Positions 46,008 through 60,672 of a DNA stretch of 64,000 nucleotides are shown piece by piece. Under the pieces are notes generated by a model. That model was not told where the DNA came from. It did no database searches and saw only the letters and a program-made list of their open reading frames with translations. Source of the DNA: Candidatus Limosilactobacillus intestinigallinarum (GTDB lineage: Bacteria > Bacillota > Bacilli > Lactobacillales > Lactobacillaceae); the NCBI GenBank assembly GCA_019117285.1, contig DXAA01000001.1:62001-126000 (forward strand), read 5' to 3'. The translations under genes and the position numbers were made by a program. The first letter of the stretch is position 1. Each line of letters begins with the position of its first letter.

Positions 46008-46025
46008 CAACCAGAGGTGATTAAT

Positions 46026-46316
46026 ATGACAACAACACCAACTACGATTCGTCTTGATGATAAGCTCAAGAAAGAATTAACGAAGGAACTAAAGTCCATG
46101 GGGTTAAGCGTTAATGGGTACTTCAACTTAGCCGCTCGTCAATTAGTTATTCAAAAGAAAGTGCCTTTTGAGGTCCTAGCCGAATCTGATGAACCAACAG
46201 AGACCACTAAGAAAGCCTTAGTAACAGCCCAAGCAAAGGAACTCGGAATTATTCCTGATGATTCCCCTAGTTTCGACAACGTAGACGAATTGAAGAACTA
46301 TTTGGATGAAGAATAA
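46026..46316 (+). CDS. RelB/DinJ-family antitoxin
   Basis: The 96-residue protein has an N-terminal ribbon-helix-helix (TTIRLDDKLKKELTKELKSMG ... VNGYFNLAARQLV, residues ~6-45) for DNA binding and dimerisation. An acidic C-terminal toxin-neutralising arm ends NYLDEE. ATG 46026 follows AGAGGTGA. Its stop overlaps the toxin start (TAATG, one base). Lower G+C than neighbours suggests acquisition. Confidence 0.9.
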   Translation: MTTTPTTIRLDDKLKKELTKELKSMGLSVNGYFNLAARQLVIQKKVPFEVLAESDEPTETTKKALVTAQAKELGIIPDDSPSFDNVDELKNYLDEE

Positions 46317-46804
46317 TGTATCAATTAAAGGTTGAACCCCAATTCAAGCGAGACTATCAACGATTGAAATATCATCACCCGGAATTAATTGGCGAGCTCA
46401 TGAATACCTTAAACCAGTTGCGCCTTAACGGAATCGTTAACGCTGAGTATCGACCACATATCCTAGACAATCGCGGCGGCAACTACAATGGTAGTTATGA
46501 GTACCATTTATCTGATGGCAAGGTTGATATACTAGTAATTTATATGCCCCATAGAACTAACCCATCAATTCGATTAATTCGCGTGGGTGGCCACAATGAA
46601 TTATTCCATAAGTACGCTAAAATAATTGTTCGTTCAGCAACGGGAGTTACATCATGCTCGTCTTTATATAACTTTTGGCTGCACTTACTAAAGGTAGGCA
46701 AATCGATAGACAAAGCGGGCCGTAATCGGTATGATGGGACTAACGATTCTAATGACGGGAGGAAGAACAGATGGCAGAGACAAAAAACTATGACGTGGTT
46801 GTAA
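46316..46804 (+). CDS. YafQ/RelE-family mRNA interferase toxin with anomalous C-terminal extension
   Basis: Residues 1 to about 100 form a normal YafQ-type toxin. It has FKRDYQRLK, PHILDNRGG, EYHLSDGKVDILVIY and RVGGHNELF, where the family ends shortly after HxxLF. The frame then runs on for some 60 residues of unrelated, polar sequence and stops inside trxB (34 bp overlap). That tail coincides with the trxB promoter and SD, so it is probably readthrough after loss of the native stop. Activity is uncertain. Confidence 0.85.
   Translation: MYQLKVEPQFKRDYQRLKYHHPELIGELMNTLNQLRLNGIVNAEYRPHILDNRGGNYNGSYEYHLSDGKVDILVIYMPHRTNPSIRLIRVGGHNELFHKYAKIIVRSATGVTSCSSLYNFWLHLLKVGKSIDKAGRNRYDGTNDSNDGRKNRWQRQKTMTWL
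46707..46735 (+). promoter_or_regulatory. trxB promoter inside the toxin-ORF tail
   Basis: TAGACA (46707-46712), a 17-bp spacer and TATGAT (46730-46735), with one mismatch to consensus in each box. Confidence 0.7.
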
Positions 46805-47708: not shown

Positions 47709-47737
47709 AGCACCGACCAGATTGGTCGGTGCTTTTT
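47709..47737 (+). terminator. trxB terminator
   Basis: AGCACCGACCA/TGGTCGGTGCT stem followed by TTTTT. Confidence 0.92.
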
Positions 47738-47791: not shown

Positions 47792-48727
47792 ATGGAAGAG
47801 ATCAGTATTCAGGAGGACTTTGTTTTCGGTAGCGTCATGAGCAACAAGCACCTTTGCCAGCACTTAATTCAAATCATCTTGCCGGAGTTACATATTGAGC
47901 GGATCGAGTTTCCCACCCTCCAGAAGGCCGTCCAGGAGAATATCATCAGCCGGGGCGTTCGTTTCGATGTCTACACCAAGGACGAAAACGGCGTGGTGTA
48001 CGAGATCGACATGCAGGTCCGTCACACTCGAGGACTACCCCAGCGGGTGCGCTACTATCAGGGCCGGATTGATGGTGACATGTTGCGACACGGACAGCCG
48101 TACGCCAAGTTGCGGCAGTCCTATGTGATCTTCATCTGTCCCTTTGACCCCTATGACAAGGGACTGCATAAGTACGAGTTCAGAAACTACTGCAGCCAGG
48201 ACAAGTCGCTGGCGATGGGGGATGGACGCACGGCGATCTTCCTCAACACTAAAGGAACGGTAAACGATGTCGACCAGGACTTGCGCAACTTCCTCGAATA
48301 CGTGGATAATAAGGATGTAAGGGATGATCACTATGTTGACGAACTGAGGGACTACATCAATGTCCTGAGTAAAGACACGGAATGGAGGAAAGAATACATG
48401 GACAATAAAACCCACATGATGTTTCATGACGAAGATGTCCGCGCGGAGGGCCGCGCGGAAGGCCTTAAGGAAGGTCAAGCAAAAGGCCTCAAAGAAGGCC
48501 AAGTAAAAGGCCGTAGGGAAGGTCTTAAGGAAGGTCAAGCAAAAGGCCGTAGGGAAGGCCTCAAAGAAGGCCAAGTAAAAGGCCGTATGGAGGGTCAGAC
48601 AATGACAATCAAGAAGACGGTCGCCATACTCAAGCAGATGGACGTTCCCGAAGCCGAGATTGCGCACAAGATTCAGCAGGTTTTTGATTTGACGGCGGAA
48701 CAGGCAGCTAGCCTGCTCAAACAATAA
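47792..48727 (+). CDS. Rpn-family PD-(D/E)xK nuclease, long form (RpnL-like)
   Basis: The 311-residue protein belongs to the Rpn / PDDEXK-transposase family. Catalytic positions are visible in RGVRFDVYTKDENG and VVYEIDMQVRH (D...ExDxQ, residues ~53-76). A C-terminal domain from residue 203 starts MDNKTHMMFHDE and contains 13 four-residue repeats of the type EGxx/KGxx. It ends in a helical segment that includes QMDVPEAEIAHKIQQ. A GGGGAGG SD precedes the ATG, partly paired with an upstream CCCGTA. Rpn proteins are toxic nucleases with anti-phage roles in E. coli. Confidence 0.9.
   Translation: MEEISIQEDFVFGSVMSNKHLCQHLIQIILPELHIERIEFPTLQKAVQENIISRGVRFDVYTKDENGVVYEIDMQVRHTRGLPQRVRYYQGRIDGDMLRHGQPYAKLRQSYVIFICPFDPYDKGLHKYEFRNYCSQDKSLAMGDGRTAIFLNTKGTVNDVDQDLRNFLEYVDNKDVRDDHYVDELRDYINVLSKDTEWRKEYMDNKTHMMFHDEDVRAEGRAEGLKEGQAKGLKEGQVKGRREGLKEGQAKGRREGLKEGQVKGRMEGQTMTIKKTVAILKQMDVPEAEIAHKIQQVFDLTAEQAASLLKQ
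48398..48727 (+). CDS. Internal in-frame gene encoding the Rpn C-terminal domain (RpnS-like antitoxin candidate)
   Basis: Inside the nuclease gene, in the same frame, GGAGGA (48384-48389) stands 8 bases before ATG 48398. This would yield the last 109 residues alone. In E. coli, Rpn short forms made from such internal starts neutralise the full-length nuclease, and their dimer helix carries four-residue repeats, exactly as here. Strong support comes from the free-standing duplicate downstream, which begins at the same Met with the same 18 residues. Confidence 0.72.
   Translation: MDNKTHMMFHDEDVRAEGRAEGLKEGQAKGLKEGQVKGRREGLKEGQAKGRREGLKEGQVKGRMEGQTMTIKKTVAILKQMDVPEAEIAHKIQQVFDLTAEQAASLLKQ
48446..48601 (+). 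repeat. 12-bp (four-residue) tandem repeats in rpn
   Basis: There are 13 units of 12 bp encoding (E/K)Gxx, with higher-order 60-bp duplication: the block encoding LKEGQAKG/LKEGQVKG recurs. Such arrays change copy number by slippage or recombination. Confidence 0.88.
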
Positions 48728-48739
48728 GAGGTGGAAGAC

Positions 48740-48964
48740 ATGGACAACAAAACCCACATGATGTTTCACGATGAAGACGTTCGCGCAGAAGGATACAGGC
48801 AAGGCCTGGCGGAAGGTCGCGCGAAAGGCCAAGTAATGGTAATCAAAAAGGCAGTTCCCATGTTCAGGCAGATGGGAATTCCCGAAGCCGAGATTGCGCA
48901 AAAGATCCAGCAGGCCTTTGACCTATCCGACCAGGAAGCGGCCGACCTGATCAGCACTAAGTAA
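48740..48964 (+). CDS. Stand-alone Rpn C-terminal-domain gene (duplicated RpnS-like protein)
   Basis: The 74-residue protein is a second copy of the Rpn C-terminal domain. Its first 18 residues are identical to the internal product (MDNKTHMMFHDEDVRAEG). It then has only four repeat units instead of 13, and a diverged tail with QMGIPEAEIAQKIQQ. AGAGGTGG precedes ATG 48740, 12 bp after the nuclease stop, so it is in the same operon. No nuclease domain precedes it. It may be an extra antitoxin. Confidence 0.8.
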   Translation: MDNKTHMMFHDEDVRAEGYRQGLAEGRAKGQVMVIKKAVPMFRQMGIPEAEIAQKIQQAFDLSDQEAADLISTK

Positions 48965-48992
48965 AAGTTTAGTAAAACAATTAGTAAACTTT
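48964..48992 (+). terminator. Inverted repeat after the rpn operon
   Basis: AAAGTTTA (48964-48971) and TAAACTTT (48985-48992) form an 8-bp stem with a 13-base loop. The U tract is short, so it is a weak terminator or an operator upstream of pgm. Confidence 0.4.
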
Positions 48993-49053
48993 CCCAACAA
49001 AAGTATTCTGCGGTATACTAGACAGCAGAGAAAATAGTAAAGGAGACTTCACT

Positions 49054-52722: not shown

Positions 52723-55700
52723 ATGACACTCGATCGTGAGGTTCCGCACTATAGTCTGCGGAAGCTGGGGATCGGTGTCGTTTCTGTATTGTTGGGAACA
52801 ACGATGTACCTGGGTGCCAACAGCACCGTGGCGAAGGCGGCTACTGCAGCAAACAGTAACGCAACAGGTAGCGACGCGGTTCAGGCAGATGCAGCATCAA
52901 AGACGGGTGCTTTACAAAGTGCCTCAACTGTGACGATGGCTAATACACCAGCAACAAGCGCAACCGCTGCCACGTCAGTAGCTCCAACACAAAACTCTGG
53001 TGCGCAAAACGTGGCTGCTAGTGAAGCAAACGAAACTGTATCATCACAGGCTACAGTTGAAAGTAACAGTCAGAGTGAAAACGCTAATGCATCAACTAGT
53101 ACTGCTACTCAGGCAATGGCAAATAGCAATGCAAACACGCAAAGCTTTACCGTTTCCACAGCAAATGGTTCTGAAAACAATGCTGCATCTTTAACAGAGT
53201 CTAAGGTACAGCAGGATGCAACAACAATTAATATAGGTAAGAGTGCATCATTGAGTACTACCACTACTACTTTAGAGGGCTATGCTAATGGTAAAGCAGT
53301 AATGAACTTTAAAGCTGTAGCTAATCCTGGTGATGTCTATACAATTAAGGTTCCTAAAAAATATGTTGACATGGCTTCAAAAGATGTTGCTCAGATTCAG
53401 GGTGCTATTGGAAACACAACATTTAATGATGATGATAAAGATTATTACGTTATAACTGATACATTTGCTAAGAGCGCTACTATTACTCAAGATATTAATT
53501 TGAATGCTAGTTCCACTTATTTAGGAAAATGTAGTCCTGACACCGTATACCCAGGTGAACGTTTTAAAATGGCAGTTACGTTAGAACATAATGGAGAAAC
53601 AAAGAAACTGCCACTGGAATATCAATTGCCTTCTAAATTCGGAGGAAGTCTTAGTTATGGCTTGCAAAGGGATCTGGATGATAATAATAGCAGATTCAAG
53701 CTCAACGGAGAGGTAGCTATTCGTAGTGGTCAATCATTGCCATATGTTGTCAGATTTTTAGAGTATGGAATTGACGGTGGATATTATGTATCAGCAATTA
53801 ATCATGGGGCAACTGTTCGGATACCAGTTCCTAAATATTTTAAACTTGATACAACCATCCCACTATATTGTTTAGACACCACTCAATCACACCTAATGAA
53901 TCTTGATGATTTAAGCAAGTTCAAAATAAGCCAAGCTGGAATTGGTCAAGACGTATTACTTACTATCCCAGCAGGAAGTAAAATTTTTGACAAAAGCCAA
54001 TTTAGTGAGGGTAATTCTGTAGTATTTCACGGAATAATGCAGGTCCCTGATAGTGTTTTATTAGGGAAAAAGACTGCTTTTTCTGCAAAAGGAAACCCAA
54101 CGGTTACTCAAGAGTTTAATGATGGTAAGCAAACTACAATAACGGCTGACAAAAATTATACTTATTATGTTCTTCCAGCTGTTAAGAACATTAGTGACGG
54201 TTATATTTTTGGCATTTCCCAAGTTAAGAGTGGGAATCACGTTGGCGGTACATACGATGATGGTACCGTCGCTGATGCAAATTATAATATCATGCAAGAT
54301 TCAGCCGGAAATAGATACACCGGATGGGATACGGCTACCTTCGGTGTTACCAATATTACAAATGAAGCCCAAAAGAATACAGTTATCCATATTAATTATC
54401 CCGATGGTTTAAATGTTTATAATCTTGATGTCAGAGCTATTGGGAATGATACTCAGTGTAAATATAGTGCAGTTATCACTTATCGAGATGGTACCAAAGA
54501 AAATATATCGGATATTACAAATCAATATGGATATAATAAACAAGAAAATAAGATAATTAAAAATGTTGACATTACTGTCAGCAATTTTCTGCCTGGGGCT
54601 TTTGTACAGGTAGCTCCATCGACAAACTATAAAATAGCAGCAAACTATTCAAATGGGAAATTAGTCACTGCCGGTGATAATCTTCGAACAACAATTAATA
54701 TTAATGATGATCAAAACAAGATTACTCAGGTTGATATGATTTTCCCTAAAGAAGTTATTCCATTAACTATTAGGGGAAATGTACTAACGAATCAACTAAA
54801 AACAAATCCTGGTGCACAAGCGGCAGGGTTTATAGAAATAAGTTTTGATCAAGCTAATACTTCGACAGATATAGACCTTGTTCGTCCAATTGTCTATATT
54901 AAGCTACCTAATAATGCTGTTCCTAAACTGGATAACGCAAGCTTCAAAATTTTCGACATAAATGATATTGTTCCAACTACTATTTATACCCCGAAGAGTT
55001 TGTCTACATTTACAGTAGGAAAAGATAAATTTTTGAAAATTGATTTATCAAATTATGACAATATCCCAAATGGGATCAATATTTACGGATACCTTCCTTC
55101 TATAAAGAGTCTTGGCCTTCCAGTTTCAAATAAATTTGATGCGCAAAGTTCAACAGAACCAATTGGGGCATTCATTCTAACACAGAACGCTAAAGATTTT
55201 ACTGGTTATTCCGCAAAAGAAAGTAACCTTGCAAATCTTGACAAAAATGTTGATCAAAGTAAATGGGGAAATGAAATTATTCAACATGATGGCATTGACC
55301 CTACATTAGTATTTGCCAGCCTTGATGAGCCGAAGTGGCAGATTTTGACGCCAACAGCAACTGTGCCTGCTGAAGCCGCTCAAGGAAATCAAGACAGTGG
55401 ATTGGTTCTCCAAGGCTCTTCTGAAGACCACCAGGGTTCAAAGATGAATTATGCTACTTCATTTGTTAACGGGACCAATACTACCCTTTATAATGTGGAG
55501 TCATTCACCAACTTACCTCAAAAAGACGGAAATAAGGGCTTTAATGTTACGTTAACGGGACCAGCACAAGTGATTAATGCGATGACGGGTGAGCAGATCA
55601 AAGATGCAACTATTAAGTATTCTACTCAACCGGTTGCGATTGCCGAATCTCAAAAGCCAAGTCAAGACGGCTTTGTAAGTGCTGATCAGCTTAATGGTAA

Positions 55701-58700
55701 TTGGTCAGCAGTTCGTTCAGTACTGGTAACCATGCCGTCCGTAAGTGGTAAAACATCAGTACGTATAGTATTCCCTGGTGAGGATAAGACTATTTACGAT
55801 GATGTTAACCAAACTGCCTACCTTGCTAGTTCCACTTGGGCTAGTGGTCGTAACAGTTCTGAAAAGCAAAAGCCATTCATTATCTCTGCTGGAGGTAACG
55901 GTAGTTCTAGCGTTACTGTTAAAGAGCAGGATAAGATTAACGTTGAAATCCACTACACGGATAAGAATGGTAAGGATGTCTATGTCAAATTACCTGATAA
56001 GGCCAAAGTTTATAACTATGGCGACACAATGAAGCAGACGGACTTCTTGAATAGTGATAGTGATTTGACCGCAGCTGATAAAGCATTATTACCATCGCCA
56101 ATCTACATTAACTATGCTCATCCGACGATTGAGAATTCAAACGAGAATTATGGGCCTAATTATAAGAATGGTACTGCTGAATTTGGGCAGAAGGTAAAAT
56201 ACGACTTTAATAATGATACGGTTGTTTATGAGGCTTCTTTAAACAATACGACGCCAACCAAGCGGACAACTACCGTTACTGAAGTTATTAAATACCAATA
56301 CGCAAATGGTGACCCCATTCCTGGTGACAAATACAAGGATCATGTTGTAACGGTTAAAGTAACCCAAACAGGAATCCATCATGGTGATACCAACACGGAT
56401 GACTGGAACGGTAAGATTAACAGTGCACAATTTGATGCAGTTACGAGTCCAGAACTAGAGAACTATACTCCAGATCAGGCTGTGGTTAATGGTCAAGTGG
56501 TTCAATTAACAAATGAAAACTGGGGTCCACAAACTATTACTAAGATCGTAAAGTACAGTGCAAATACGAGTACGGTATACCGTCACAAGGTAATTAACGA
56601 AACCATTAAATACGTTTATAGCAACGGCAAGACTGCTGCGCCAACAGTTACCAAGAAAGTTACTCTAACTCAGACGGGGACGAAGAACCTGGCAACCAAT
56701 ACCACCGATTGGAATGGCCAATGGAATAATCCAGCTACATTTGAAGCTGTTAAGAGTCCAACTATTTCAGGCTATACTCCGGATAAGCAGCAGATTGATT
56801 CACGAACAGTTCAAGTAACAAACGATAATTATGGTGACAATTTTGATAAGACGTTTACCGTAACTTATAAAGCTGACCAACAAAAGATTACGGTTAACTA
56901 CATCGATGATACGACGAAGACTACCTTGTCATCTAAGAGCTTGACCGGTGATTCAGGTGCGGATGCCAACTATACCACGAAGTCAACGATTGATAATTAT
57001 CTCAAAGAGCATTACCAGTTAGTTAGTGATGAAACCAATGGCCAAGACCTTGTCTTTGATAATAATGATAAGGTTGACCAAGTTTACAATGTGCACTTCA
57101 ACCACGCCACTGAACCTGCTAAGGATAGTCAAAAGATTACTGAAACTATCCACTACGTTTATGGCAAGGGCCCAAAGCAGGGGCCTGCTCAACCTGACAA
57201 TAATCAGGATGTAACATTTAGTCGGACCGGGACCAAGGACTTGGTCACCAAGAAGACGACTTGGCAAGCTTGGACACCAGACAGTGATCAGTTCAAGGCG
57301 GTTGATACACCAACAATCGAGGGTTACACCCCTGATAAAACACAAGTCAAGGCTACGACAGTCAAGCCTGGTGATAATAATATCGTTCAAACGGTTACCT
57401 ACAACGCTGACCAACAAAAGATTACGGTTAACTATATCGATGACACGACGAAGACTACCATGTCATCTAAGAACTTGACCGGTGATTCAGGTGCGGCTGC
57501 CAACTACACTACGAAGTCAACGATCGATAATTATCTCAAAGAGCATTACCAGTTAGTTAGTGATGAAACCAATGGCCAAGACCTTGTCTTTGATAATAAT
57601 GATAAGGTTGACCAAGTTTACAATGTTCACTTCACTCACGGAACCAAGAACGTTACGCAAAATCACAATGTCAATGAAACTGTTCACTATGTTTACGAGA
57701 ACGGTGACAAGGCAGCTGATGATTATAAAGCTACACCGATTGTCTTCACCCAATCGGGGGTTCAAGACCTTGTTACTAACCAAATTAAGTGGGGTAACTG
57801 GGACAAAGACAGTGCTATATTTGCACCAGTAGTCTCACCAACAATTCCTAACTACCAGGCAATGCCTGCCCAAATCAAGGCCCAAACGGTAACGCATGAC
57901 AGCAAGGACATTAATGAAACCGTTGTCTACATGCCAATGCAGAGAATGACGGTTACCTACGTTGATGATACGACTGGCAAGACGCTGGAGGTCTGGAAGG
58001 ATCAAGGTCCATCGAATGAGGACACTGGCTACAACACTCAGGCGACGATTCAAAAGTATGAAGGGGAACACTACCTCTTAGTTTCTGATGACACGCCAGT
58101 TGGCCAAGATCTGAAGTTTGATGATGACGTCAAAACTGATCAGAACTACACTGTCCACTTGAAACACGACATTTCAACCAAGGTTAAGCACGTCATGGTT
58201 GATGAGACTGTTCACTATGTCATGGCGGACGGAACGGCAGCACCGGCAGACTATACGGCAACGCCAATTACCTTTGATGTAACGACAGCACACGATTTGG
58301 TCACAGGTCTGGACACGGTCACTAAGACTCCTGAACAAGCTAAGTTTGCTCAGGTTGATAGTCCAGCAGTGCCGGGTTATGTTCCTGACCTGAAGTACAT
58401 CTCCGCACAGACTGTCACGGCTGATACTCCATCACCACTGCGGTTCCAGGTTATCTACAGCCCAGAATTCCAGGGGATTACGGTAAACTACGTCGACCAG
58501 ACGGATAACCAGCTGCTGGAGAGCAAGAGCCTGACGGGATCAGCTAACACGGATGCTAACTACAACACGCAGGCGACGATCCAAAAGTACCTGCAGGAAC
58601 ACTACAAGTTAGTTTCTGATAAGACCGGTGGCAGTGAATTGTGGTTCGGTAAGGACAACAGTAAGCCGCAGATTTACTGGGTATACTTCAACCACGAAAC

Positions 58701-60672
58701 TCAGCCAGTCAATGACCAATCAGTCGTTCACGAGACAGTTCACTATGTCATGAGCGATGGTACGAAGGCACCGAGTGATCACCAGGCTAGCCTAATCTTT
58801 ACCCGGACTGGCGTTAAGGATCTTGTCACTGGTCAAACCAAGTGGACGACGCCAGCTGAACAGACATTTAGTCGGGTTGAGTCACCAGCTGTTCCGGGCT
58901 ACACGCCAAACATCAAGACGGTTGCTCCAGTAACGGTAACCTATGGCTCAACTGATATTACGCGGGAAGTTGTCTACACGCCAGACACGCAGACAATCAA
59001 GGTTTACTACGTCGATCAGACGAATGGTGATCAGCTTGCTGATGACCAGATGCAAGGACCATCAAATGGTGATGCTAACTACAGCACTCATGACACGATC
59101 ACTAAGCTACAAGGACAACATTATGTTCTGGTTAATGACCAGACGAATGGTGACCAGCTGAAGTTTAGCAACGATGGTAAGCCACAAATTTACTACGTTT
59201 ACTTCACGCACGAGATGAAGCAGACGCAGGATAAGAAGCCGGTTAAGGAAACCATTCATTACGTTTACGCTAATGGTGGTCAGGCAGCACCTGACAAGAT
59301 CCAGACGGTTAACTTTAGCCGTTCCGGAAAGACTGACCTGGTAACCAATGTCACGAATTGGGACAATTGGACACCAGCGAATGGTCAGTTCACTAAGGTT
59401 GATAGTCCAGTTATTGCTGGTTACACGCCAGACATCAAGACAATTAATCCAACACTGGTAATGCCAACGTCTAGCGACATTACGCGGACCGTAATTTACA
59501 GCGCGGTTCCACAGAGTACACCACAGTCAACACCGCAGAGCACGCCACAATCGACGCCGCAGTCGACGCCACAGTCAACGCCGCAGAGTACCCCGCAGTC
59601 GACACCACAGAGTACTCCGCAGTCAACGCCGCAGAGCACTCCACAGTCGACACCACAGAGTACGCCGCAGAGTACTCCACAGTCCACACCGCAGAGTACC
59701 CCACAATCGACGCCACAGAGTACACCACAGTCAACGCCGCAGAGCACTCCACAATCAACGCCGCAGAGCACTCCACAGAGTACCCCACAGTCGACGCCAC
59801 AGAGCACACCGCAGTCAACGCCACAGAGTCAACCAAGCGGTCAACAGCCAAGTGGCCAGCAACCGAGTGGTCAACAACCAAGTGGTCAACAACCAAGTGG
59901 CCAGCAACCGAGTGGTCAACAGCCAAGTGGTCAACAACCGAGCGGTCAACAACCAAGCGGTCAACAGCCGAGTGGTCAGCAACCGAGTGGTCAACAGCCA
60001 AGTGGCCAACAACCAACCAAGAATCAGTCACAAACCGCTGAAGTTGTTTACGTTGACGAAGACAATGGCTTCAAGCAGATTACTAACTCAGGTAATCTGA
60101 CTGGTCAGCCAGGAACGAGAATTAACTACAGCACGGCTAAGACGCTGCAACAGTTAGCTGATGAAGGTTACGAGGTTGTTGAAAATGACTTCGATCCAAA
60201 TGGCCAAGCTCCAACGTTCGATAATGACAGTGGAAGCACGCAAGTTTACACCGTTGTTATGAAGCACAAGAACAATGGTCAACAGCCAAACGGTCAGCAA
60301 CCGAGTGCCCAACAACCAAGTGGCCAACAACCAAGAGGTCAACAATCGAACGGTCAACAGCCAAGTGGTCTGCCTGGCATGTTGTCTAATGATGGCAATG
60401 CTGGTGGATTCGGCAATGGTGGTGCAACCCCTACCAACATGCAGTCCGGCATTGTTGGCCAGCCAAGTGGTAACCTGGCTACCCTGGCTAATACTAAGCC
60501 GAGTGCTGGTACCGTAATTTCTAACGGTGCTGGGACGAACGGCAACGCTACTGGTCAGAGCGCATTGCCACAAACTGGTAACAGCACCGCTGAAGCAGCA
60601 TCTGCTGTAGCCCTCGGTCTGATGGGTATCGCACTTGCTGGTTTAGGCGCAACCAAGAAGCGTCATGCTTAA
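52723..60672 (+). CDS. Giant YSIRK/LPXTG mucus-binding-type adhesin
   Basis: The 2649-residue surface protein has a YSIRK-type signal (YSLRKLGIGVVSVLLGTT, cleavage near AKA, residue ~39), an Ala/Ser/Thr-rich spacer (to ~165) and a unique region (~170-1150) of A/T-rich sequence. Seven Mub-B2-like modules follow from ~1175, five of them followed by a MucBP unit. Then come 26 PQST repeats (~2263-2366), 12 PSGQQ repeats (~2371-2430), a terminal MucBP-like module, LPQTG (~2615), a TM and KKRHA. The original start at 52687 is cut by TAA at codon 11; ATG 52723 is the restart. Confidence 0.88.
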   Translation: MTLDREVPHYSLRKLGIGVVSVLLGTTMYLGANSTVAKAATAANSNATGSDAVQADAASKTGALQSASTVTMANTPATSATAATSVAPTQNSGAQNVAASEANETVSSQATVESNSQSENANASTSTATQAMANSNANTQSFTVSTANGSENNAASLTESKVQQDATTINIGKSASLSTTTTTLEGYANGKAVMNFKAVANPGDVYTIKVPKKYVDMASKDVAQIQGAIGNTTFNDDDKDYYVITDTFAKSATITQDINLNASSTYLGKCSPDTVYPGERFKMAVTLEHNGETKKLPLEYQLPSKFGGSLSYGLQRDLDDNNSRFKLNGEVAIRSGQSLPYVVRFLEYGIDGGYYVSAINHGATVRIPVPKYFKLDTTIPLYCLDTTQSHLMNLDDLSKFKISQAGIGQDVLLTIPAGSKIFDKSQFSEGNSVVFHGIMQVPDSVLLGKKTAFSAKGNPTVTQEFNDGKQTTITADKNYTYYVLPAVKNISDGYIFGISQVKSGNHVGGTYDDGTVADANYNIMQDSAGNRYTGWDTATFGVTNITNEAQKNTVIHINYPDGLNVYNLDVRAIGNDTQCKYSAVITYRDGTKENISDITNQYGYNKQENKIIKNVDITVSNFLPGAFVQVAPSTNYKIAANYSNGKLVTAGDNLRTTININDDQNKITQVDMIFPKEVIPLTIRGNVLTNQLKTNPGAQAAGFIEISFDQANTSTDIDLVRPIVYIKLPNNAVPKLDNASFKIFDINDIVPTTIYTPKSLSTFTVGKDKFLKIDLSNYDNIPNGINIYGYLPSIKSLGLPVSNKFDAQSSTEPIGAFILTQNAKDFTGYSAKESNLANLDKNVDQSKWGNEIIQHDGIDPTLVFASLDEPKWQILTPTATVPAEAAQGNQDSGLVLQGSSEDHQGSKMNYATSFVNGTNTTLYNVESFTNLPQKDGNKGFNVTLTGPAQVINAMTGEQIKDATIKYSTQPVAIAESQKPSQDGFVSADQLNGNWSAVRSVLVTMPSVSGKTSVRIVFPGEDKTIYDDVNQTAYLASSTWASGRNSSEKQKPFIISAGGNGSSSVTVKEQDKINVEIHYTDKNGKDVYVKLPDKAKVYNYGDTMKQTDFLNSDSDLTAADKALLPSPIYINYAHPTIENSNENYGPNYKNGTAEFGQKVKYDFNNDTVVYEASLNNTTPTKRTTTVTEVIKYQYANGDPIPGDKYKDHVVTVKVTQTGIHHGDTNTDDWNGKINSAQFDAVTSPELENYTPDQAVVNGQVVQLTNENWGPQTITKIVKYSANTSTVYRHKVINETIKYVYSNGKTAAPTVTKKVTLTQTGTKNLATNTTDWNGQWNNPATFEAVKSPTISGYTPDKQQIDSRTVQVTNDNYGDNFDKTFTVTYKADQQKITVNYIDDTTKTTLSSKSLTGDSGADANYTTKSTIDNYLKEHYQLVSDETNGQDLVFDNNDKVDQVYNVHFNHATEPAKDSQKITETIHYVYGKGPKQGPAQPDNNQDVTFSRTGTKDLVTKKTTWQAWTPDSDQFKAVDTPTIEGYTPDKTQVKATTVKPGDNNIVQTVTYNADQQKITVNYIDDTTKTTMSSKNLTGDSGAAANYTTKSTIDNYLKEHYQLVSDETNGQDLVFDNNDKVDQVYNVHFTHGTKNVTQNHNVNETVHYVYENGDKAADDYKATPIVFTQSGVQDLVTNQIKWGNWDKDSAIFAPVVSPTIPNYQAMPAQIKAQTVTHDSKDINETVVYMPMQRMTVTYVDDTTGKTLEVWKDQGPSNEDTGYNTQATIQKYEGEHYLLVSDDTPVGQDLKFDDDVKTDQNYTVHLKHDISTKVKHVMVDETVHYVMADGTAAPADYTATPITFDVTTAHDLVTGLDTVTKTPEQAKFAQVDSPAVPGYVPDLKYISAQTVTADTPSPLRFQVIYSPEFQGITVNYVDQTDNQLLESKSLTGSANTDANYNTQATIQKYLQEHYKLVSDKTGGSELWFGKDNSKPQIYWVYFNHETQPVNDQSVVHETVHYVMSDGTKAPSDHQASLIFTRTGVKDLVTGQTKWTTPAEQTFSRVESPAVPGYTPNIKTVAPVTVTYGSTDITREVVYTPDTQTIKVYYVDQTNGDQLADDQMQGPSNGDANYSTHDTITKLQGQHYVLVNDQTNGDQLKFSNDGKPQIYYVYFTHEMKQTQDKKPVKETIHYVYANGGQAAPDKIQTVNFSRSGKTDLVTNVTNWDNWTPANGQFTKVDSPVIAGYTPDIKTINPTLVMPTSSDITRTVIYSAVPQSTPQSTPQSTPQSTPQSTPQSTPQSTPQSTPQSTPQSTPQSTPQSTPQSTPQSTPQSTPQSTPQSTPQSTPQSTPQSTPQSTPQSTPQSTPQSTPQSTPQSTPQSQPSGQQPSGQQPSGQQPSGQQPSGQQPSGQQPSGQQPSGQQPSGQQPSGQQPSGQQPSGQQPTKNQSQTAEVVYVDEDNGFKQITNSGNLTGQPGTRINYSTAKTLQQLADEGYEVVENDFDPNGQAPTFDNDSGSTQVYTVVMKHKNNGQQPNGQQPSAQQPSGQQPRGQQSNGQQPSGLPGMLSNDGNAGGFGNGGATPTNMQSGIVGQPSGNLATLANTKPSAGTVISNGAGTNGNATGQSALPQTGNSTAEAASAVALGLMGIALAGLGATKKRHA
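56872..57102 (+). repeat. Near-identical MucBP module, copy 1 of a 534-bp period
   Basis: About 231 bp encoding ADQQKITVNYIDDTTKTT through VYNVHF recurs almost unchanged at 57406-57636, with only a few substitutions. This points to recent duplication or gene conversion within the adhesin. Confidence 0.9.
57406..57636 (+). repeat. Near-identical MucBP module, copy 2
   Basis: Second copy of the 56872-57102 segment, offset by 534 bp. The B2-like modules between the copies are much less similar to each other. Confidence 0.9.
59509..59820 (+). repeat. 26 tandem 12-bp units encoding PQST
   Basis: Each unit is CCN-CAG/CAA-Ser-ACN. The serine codon switches irregularly between AGT, AGC, TCA, TCG and TCC, while the protein is perfectly uniform. 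The array forms a proline-rich wall-spanning stalk. Confidence 0.95.
59833..60012 (+). repeat. 12 tandem 15-bp units encoding PSGQQ
   Basis: A second stalk repeat follows directly after PQST/PQSQ. A looser third set (xxGQQ/PSAQQ) lies at about 60274-60372 after the terminal MucBP-like module. Confidence 0.95.

Follow-up and report, generated by a model that had tools for sequence, protein, structure and literature searches.

The closest described counterparts of the locus analysed here are the rpnE-ypaA and rpnC loci of E. coli. According to the available part of Zhong et al. 2023 (PMC10327210), the short protein RpnS, encoded within the rpn gene, blocks the long protein RpnL, and free-standing RpnS genes are found downstream of rpnE (ypaA) and of rpnC, where they are described as derived from their own rpn. 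The RpnA and RpnB antitoxins were reported to give no cross-protection, one extra repeat in RpnCS abolished neutralisation, the YpaA protein was detected in E. coli, and a fusion of an N-terminal domain with the rpnS region was noted (PMC10327210). As these stand-alone copies have been published, the arrangement itself is not new. Displacement, mismatch and arrays of stand-alone copies were not met in the available part of PMC10327210.

We analysed a 64,000-nucleotide stretch of DNA (the window) from Candidatus Limosilactobacillus intestinigallinarum. Like the E. coli loci (PMC10327210), it has an intragenic RpnS with four-residue repeats, behind which lies a second RpnS gene, here called the solo. 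The two copies carry unequal repeat blocks, as they also do in the rpnE and rpnC strains of E. coli read here. The nuclease domains are different: that of the window, from a Gram-positive genus, belongs to PF12784, whereas E. coli Rpn belongs to PF04754 according to the available part of PMC5350276. The downstream genes are also described differently: the E. coli copies as derivatives of their own rpn in the available part of PMC10327210, the solo here by a pattern of displacement.

The features of the locus are listed in Table 1. The preliminary description had proposed an in-frame internal start behind GGAGGA, which would give the C-terminal domain alone, and a separate downstream gene with its own Shine-Dalgarno sequence and the same first 18 residues. 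Both were found, coordinates included, when the sequence was read, and the repeat counts proposed for the two copies agreed with a count by eye. Only 12 bases lie between the rpn stop and the solo ATG, so the solo is probably co-transcribed with rpn. The leading 18 residues of the solo and the fused domain are identical; over 17 codons of this head we found seven synonymous and no non-synonymous differences, and only three differences were unique to the solo. The sole promoter-like match within rpn (48602) was at chance level, with two matches found in the region and 1.3 expected, and two terminator-like sites were found against 1.6 expected by shuffling. The neighbours of rpn, named from their translations, are presumably trxB and a phosphoglucomutase-type gene (pgm). 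Just upstream of trxB (46017-46804), a gene for a RelB-like antitoxin (PF04221) precedes one for a YafQ-type toxin (PF15738), which gives a second toxin-antitoxin pair. A 2649-aa protein is encoded at 52723-60672, and its translation shows a long PQST/QPSG repeat tract preceding a C-terminal LPQTG motif; we take it to be a surface-type protein with MucBP-like repeats.

Table 1 Features of the rpn-solo locus (positions in the window).
Feature	Position	Strand	Description
Intrinsic-terminator-like hairpin	47709..47733	+	11 pairs; between trxB and rpn
rpn (RpnL)	47792..48727	+	311 aa; ATG 47792, stop 48725-48727 (read from the sequence); PD-(D/E)XK nuclease domain and C-terminal domain; TIGR01784 and PF12784 above cut-off
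Internal Shine-Dalgarno sequence GGAGGA	48384..48389	+	8 bases 5' of ATG 48398; genus-wide codon-level selection at the site
Intragenic RpnS frame (fused C-terminal domain)	48398..48727	+	109 aa; in-frame ATG, ends at the rpn stop
Four-residue (12-nt) repeats of the fused domain	48446..48601	+	13 units, by eye; tandem arrays, period 12/24/36/60
Shine-Dalgarno sequence GAGGTG of the solo	48728..48733	+	abuts the rpn stop; 6 bases to the solo ATG; match of 6
Solo, stand-alone RpnS copy	48740..48964	+	74 aa; 4 repeats; nearest to the fused RpnS of sister genomes
Four-residue repeats of the solo	48788..48835	+	4 units, by eye
Ancestral 3' flank	48965..49053	+	resembles the flank right after the rpn stop in four sister genomes

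The rpn ORF scored 92.5 bits against TIGR01784 (cut-off 52.1) and 47.4 bits against PF12784 (cut-off 27.4). Residues D59, E71, D73 and Q75, which we take to be the catalytic residues of the nuclease, were invariant in all 13 aligned sequences. At the sequence level the gene thus combines a nuclease domain, an internal Shine-Dalgarno sequence with a start, and four-residue repeats of variable number, as in Rpn systems, and the proposal that this is an Rpn gene in which RpnS has an intragenic start held up. Like YpaA, the solo is encoded separately, behind rpn; its gene has a ribosome-binding site of its own and codes for an RpnS domain. The feature is real, and its assignment to the Rpn family is good at this level. 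The solo itself scored above no curated family cut-off, and PF14261 (DUF4351) was absent from the four families listed for it up to E = 1. This miss does not decide whether it is of the YpaA type, because DUF4351 is said in the available part of PMC10327210 to be annotated "in some species". The predicted structure of the solo (pLDDT 74, pTM 0.47) has a helix at residues 11-44 and short helices at 49-60 and 64-72. These predicted helices agree with the three-helix bundle with a long first helix described for RpnAS (PMC10327210, available part). An RpnL model built from 13 sequences was poor (mean pLDDT 51) and was not used. Sequence searches of the PDB with RpnL and with an RpnS profile revealed no convincing relative: the best E values were 0.0034, for a match along the repeat helix, and 0.3. 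A PADLOC scan found no match up to E = 1. Phage records gave five matches, 24-35% identical.

We then compared the locus with a sample of 50 genomes of the genus, its own included, of which 33 had PF12784 matches. One hundred regions were fetched (the PF12784 table rows G048:C111:609617 and G018:C32:34687 were left out), and together with the window they yielded 125 rpn-domain ORFs, 100 of them at least 200 aa long. Internal-start sites were picked by a protein motif alone, [WR]R..[YFAIL]M, which occurred once in 86 of these 100 ORFs. A Shine-Dalgarno match of at least 4 preceded all 86 motif sites; of the 343 remaining in-frame Met codons at residues 30-150, only 74 had one. The motif arginine was encoded by AGG or AGA in 78 of 86 sites, compared with 138 of 1162 upstream arginine codons in the same genes (Fisher 1e-55, ignoring relatedness). 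This enrichment provides codon-level evidence, from statistics that ignore kinship, that the internal start is under selection across the genus. The invariance of a 13-residue head in one alignment (A2) was set aside, since its sequences had been chosen by that motif (15 of 19 loci hold it).

We also compared the two copies with sister genomes. In all four sister loci read (G040, G046, G015 and G031), trxB, rpn and pgm follow each other without a solo; protein identity to the window is 92.6-94.5% for trxB and 96.9-97.4% for pgm. The nuclease domain is orthologous and constrained: among its 208 codons, 59-64 differ synonymously and 8-13 non-synonymously. The flank after the sisters' rpn stop aligns with the window flank after the solo. 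The RpnS frames of the sisters are 74, 74, 70 and 66 aa long, with 4, 4, 3 and 2 repeats by eye; the solo of the window has 74 aa and its fused domain 109. In the tail, 88-91 of 114 nt are identical to the sisters in the solo and 79-81 of 114 in the fused domain. Of the positions identical in all four sisters, 15 are changed in the fused copy alone, five in the solo alone and two in both, a difference in rate that is modest in the window (chi-square 1.8 to 5.1 over 114 nt). The shared 3' flank and the closer tail show that it is the solo that corresponds to the C-terminal domain of the sisters, and that the 13-repeat fused domain is the odd one out. By position and sequence, the solo has the older-type tail and the fused domain a divergent one. 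A donor of the fused tail was not found in 47 genomes of the genus, where the best matches were the four sister orthologues (65-67%) and the window's own solo (58%). At this and the other loci the pattern may reflect the insertion of a new tail or a deletion in relatives; a gain in the window lineage is only the simplest reading. The window's own genome, an incomplete assembly (66.87%), also encodes a 136-aa ORF (G000:C14:3009-3416; L139:2510-2917, minus strand) that retains an Rpn C-terminal domain, with a tail of another type, but lacks the nuclease part.

A search of related genomes for rpn genes followed by a solo C-terminal domain, a check suggested in the preliminary description, uncovered 21 intact pairs. 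We identified 45 non-rpn ORFs resembling rpn C-termini, 30 of which lie behind one of 90 genes with a recognised internal start. Six had no aligned start, leaving 24 pairs, and 21 remained after removal of those in which the solo was frame-shifted or broken or the upstream gene truncated. They represent 15 rpn genes in six genomes, and eight of the pairs come from a single genome, G005. Fused and solo domains were of equal length in none of the 21 pairs, the window's included. The tail identity of the solo to its neighbour was below 0.45 in 11 pairs (including seven of the eight in G005) and at least 0.55 in nine; the window's own pair, just under 0.55 and with 4 against 13 repeats, does not qualify as a cognate duplicate. 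Since random pairs would agree in length only about 2% of the time, the mismatch indicates that solos are not kept matched to their neighbours and gives no sign of avoidance. For the same reason we gave no weight to the observation that no two paralogues of one genome share an RpnS length (0 of 51 pairs). Among the rpn genes read from each genome, a partner that agreed with the solo in both length and tail type was present for only one of the 21. Behind some rpn genes (L097, L112, L086 and L124) two or three stand-alone RpnS genes were found, and in L097 and L086, both from G005, these were of different tail types.

A layout like that of the window, judged by sequence, recurs at one further locus of the genus and at two loci in complete E. 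coli genomes. One locus occurs in both G022 and G041; there, the solo of G022 together with its flank aligns collinearly with the fused RpnS of G041 and its flank, with 94% identity over 2678 nt beginning about 20 nt before the internal start. At E. coli rpnE, 13 of 17 strains read had a solo (six configurations) and four had none. All 13 with a solo combined a fused tail B with a solo tail A, and all four without one had tail A fused; the flank after the last copy was alike in the 12 of 17 strains where it was compared. The junction of tail B to the solo (a 91-base query, at least 80% covered) was found in 3099 of 5426 E. coli genomes. LB19b, which lacks the solo, and EC21Z, which has it, differ at 3 of 690 nuclease-domain positions, and in LB19b the fused repeat block is joined to the solo's tail, as recombination between the fused and solo copies would give. 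At rpnC, seven strains with a solo were read, in five configurations. Here the solo precedes a flank resembling that after rpnC in the solo-less strain MS20673, the EC958 solo and the MS20673 fused domain have the same end residues, and fused and solo tails are alike. The repeat blocks of fused and solo copies were unequal in all six rpnE and all five rpnC configurations (M21170 and O145 by eye). In K-12, YpaA, with tail A, has one repeat more than RpnE, with tail B.

We next asked whether the solos are maintained. The pN/pS of a solo against its nearest fused RpnS was 0.05-0.38 (pooled 0.18; 0.23 for the window's solo; 21 non-independent pairs), and it was 0.21, pooled, between solo tails. 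A neutral solo branch joined to a fully constrained fused branch would be expected to give about 0.5. All 21 intact solos start with ATG and have a Shine-Dalgarno match of at least 4. On these sequence measures the solos look conserved as proteins. Where a match to the solo lay far from any complete rpn gene, it turned out to belong to an rpn remnant that had lost its 5' part and kept the RpnS part, and such matches were rejected as independent solos; in L134-L138, these remnants have an intact RpnS frame with its start.

These results bear on the question of what the solo is. It could be a spare cognate antitoxin, arisen by simple tandem duplication, that raises the dose of RpnS or makes mixed dimers with the neighbouring RpnL. 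The solo has its own Shine-Dalgarno sequence a short distance behind rpn, its 18 leading residues are those of the fused domain, YpaA is made in E. coli (PMC10327210, available part), and the nine genus pairs with alike tails, as well as E. coli rpnC, could be explained by a tandem duplication whose repeats changed later. We nevertheless find this improbable, given that lengths or repeat blocks are unequal in every genus pair and in every rpnE and rpnC configuration, that the tail is clearly different in 11 of 21 pairs, and that a mismatch of one repeat abolishes neutralisation in RpnC (PMC10327210). The same observations, with the solo of older type and the fused domain divergent, count against the earlier suggestion that the duplicate tunes the neutralisation of its neighbour; mixed dimers may still form. 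We consider it very unlikely that the solo is a dead leftover of an rpn copy that was displaced or deleted. Truncated remnants that keep the RpnS part do exist (L134-L138, and L139 in the window's own genome), two of the 24 solos whose start could be aligned are broken, and K-12 ypaA is annotated as a pseudogene; against this stand the pN/pS of about 0.2 between solos, the uniform ATG starts and Shine-Dalgarno matches, and the detection of the YpaA protein (PMC10327210).

Alternatively, downstream RpnS copies might serve as a reservoir of alternative C-termini, whose recombination onto the nuclease domain would switch the specificity of toxin and antitoxin together. The LB19b/EC21Z pair, the E. 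coli polymorphism of fused A versus fused B with solo A, and the rpn genes with two or three solos, of different tail types in G005, are consistent with such exchange, as is the noted fusion of an N-terminal domain with the rpnS region (PMC10327210, available part). In G005, paralogue pairs have nuclease domains that are 93-98% identical and tails that are 16-36% identical. Among pairs with nuclease domains at least 90% identical, the tails fell below 0.45 in 18 of 27 same-genome but 5 of 36 between-genome cases, although the same-genome counts rest heavily on G005. The exchange may, however, be passive homologous recombination, without a dedicated enzyme, and deletion goes one way only; we regard a reservoir function as unlikely. 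We also entertain, with considerable doubt, the wider idea that Rpn loci are C-terminal cassette arrays, in which a selected store of specificities would allow the C-terminus of RpnL to be swapped by recombination at the conserved internal-start segments, a self-insulating switch under phage pressure. Because the toxin contains its antitoxin, any swap would change both together and be safe in one step.

The explanation that we consider probable is displacement: the original C-terminal domain would have been pushed downstream in an Rpn toxin-antitoxin locus, and the solo would be a maintained RpnS of older specificity that most likely does not neutralise its neighbour. This builds on the observed anatomy, the displacement pattern, the mismatch in length and tail and the low pN/pS of the genus solos. 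The fused domain now in RpnL, with its 13 repeats and divergent tail, would be newer or foreign, and the 74-aa solo, which has a ribosome-binding site of its own, would be the RpnS of ancestral type and would occupy the ancestral 3' end. Its repeat number is no longer that of the neighbouring RpnL, which makes neutralisation of that protein unlikely, and by the one-repeat rule seen in RpnC (PMC10327210, available part) it is probably no spare antitoxin for it. This rule comes from one E. coli protein, and we assume that it carries over to this genus; if so, an RpnL with 13 repeats would escape neutralisation by a solo with 4. The solo would instead block RpnL variants of the older specificity, either from other loci or as incoming alleles, and also the form that reappears when recombination joins the nuclease domain to the solo again. 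We infer that the solo is translated, that it has such a neutralisation specificity and that it brings a benefit, which may be protection against other RpnL forms, a store for switching, or something else.

Displaced C-terminal domains are also found downstream of a conserved N-terminal part in CDI and Rhs systems, whose orphan modules encode toxin tips together with immunity. The Rpn solos are alike in their placement but consist of the antitoxin-type domain only. A second likeness is to the orphan immunity arrays of the Vibrio cholerae T6SS, where, in the available part of PMC5361080, earlier immunity genes stay behind in the 3' region when the active toxin module is replaced by homologous recombination, and these leftover genes resemble partners found elsewhere. 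They may be likened to a displaced and still-kept RpnS of older specificity. The T6SS effectors are secreted and have separate immunity genes, whereas the Rpn antitoxin forms the C-terminus of the toxin itself and works intracellularly.

Stand-alone RpnS copies were already known and had been left unexplained. What is added here is the displacement pattern and a systematic mismatch combined with conserved protein sequence. E. coli and a Gram-positive genus share the same anatomy, with a solo at the old 3' end, a length mismatch in every pair read and a conserved protein sequence. The "extra antitoxin" thereby becomes a testable statement on displaced specificities, one that bears on how a gene-within-gene toxin-antitoxin pair can change its specificity without killing its host.
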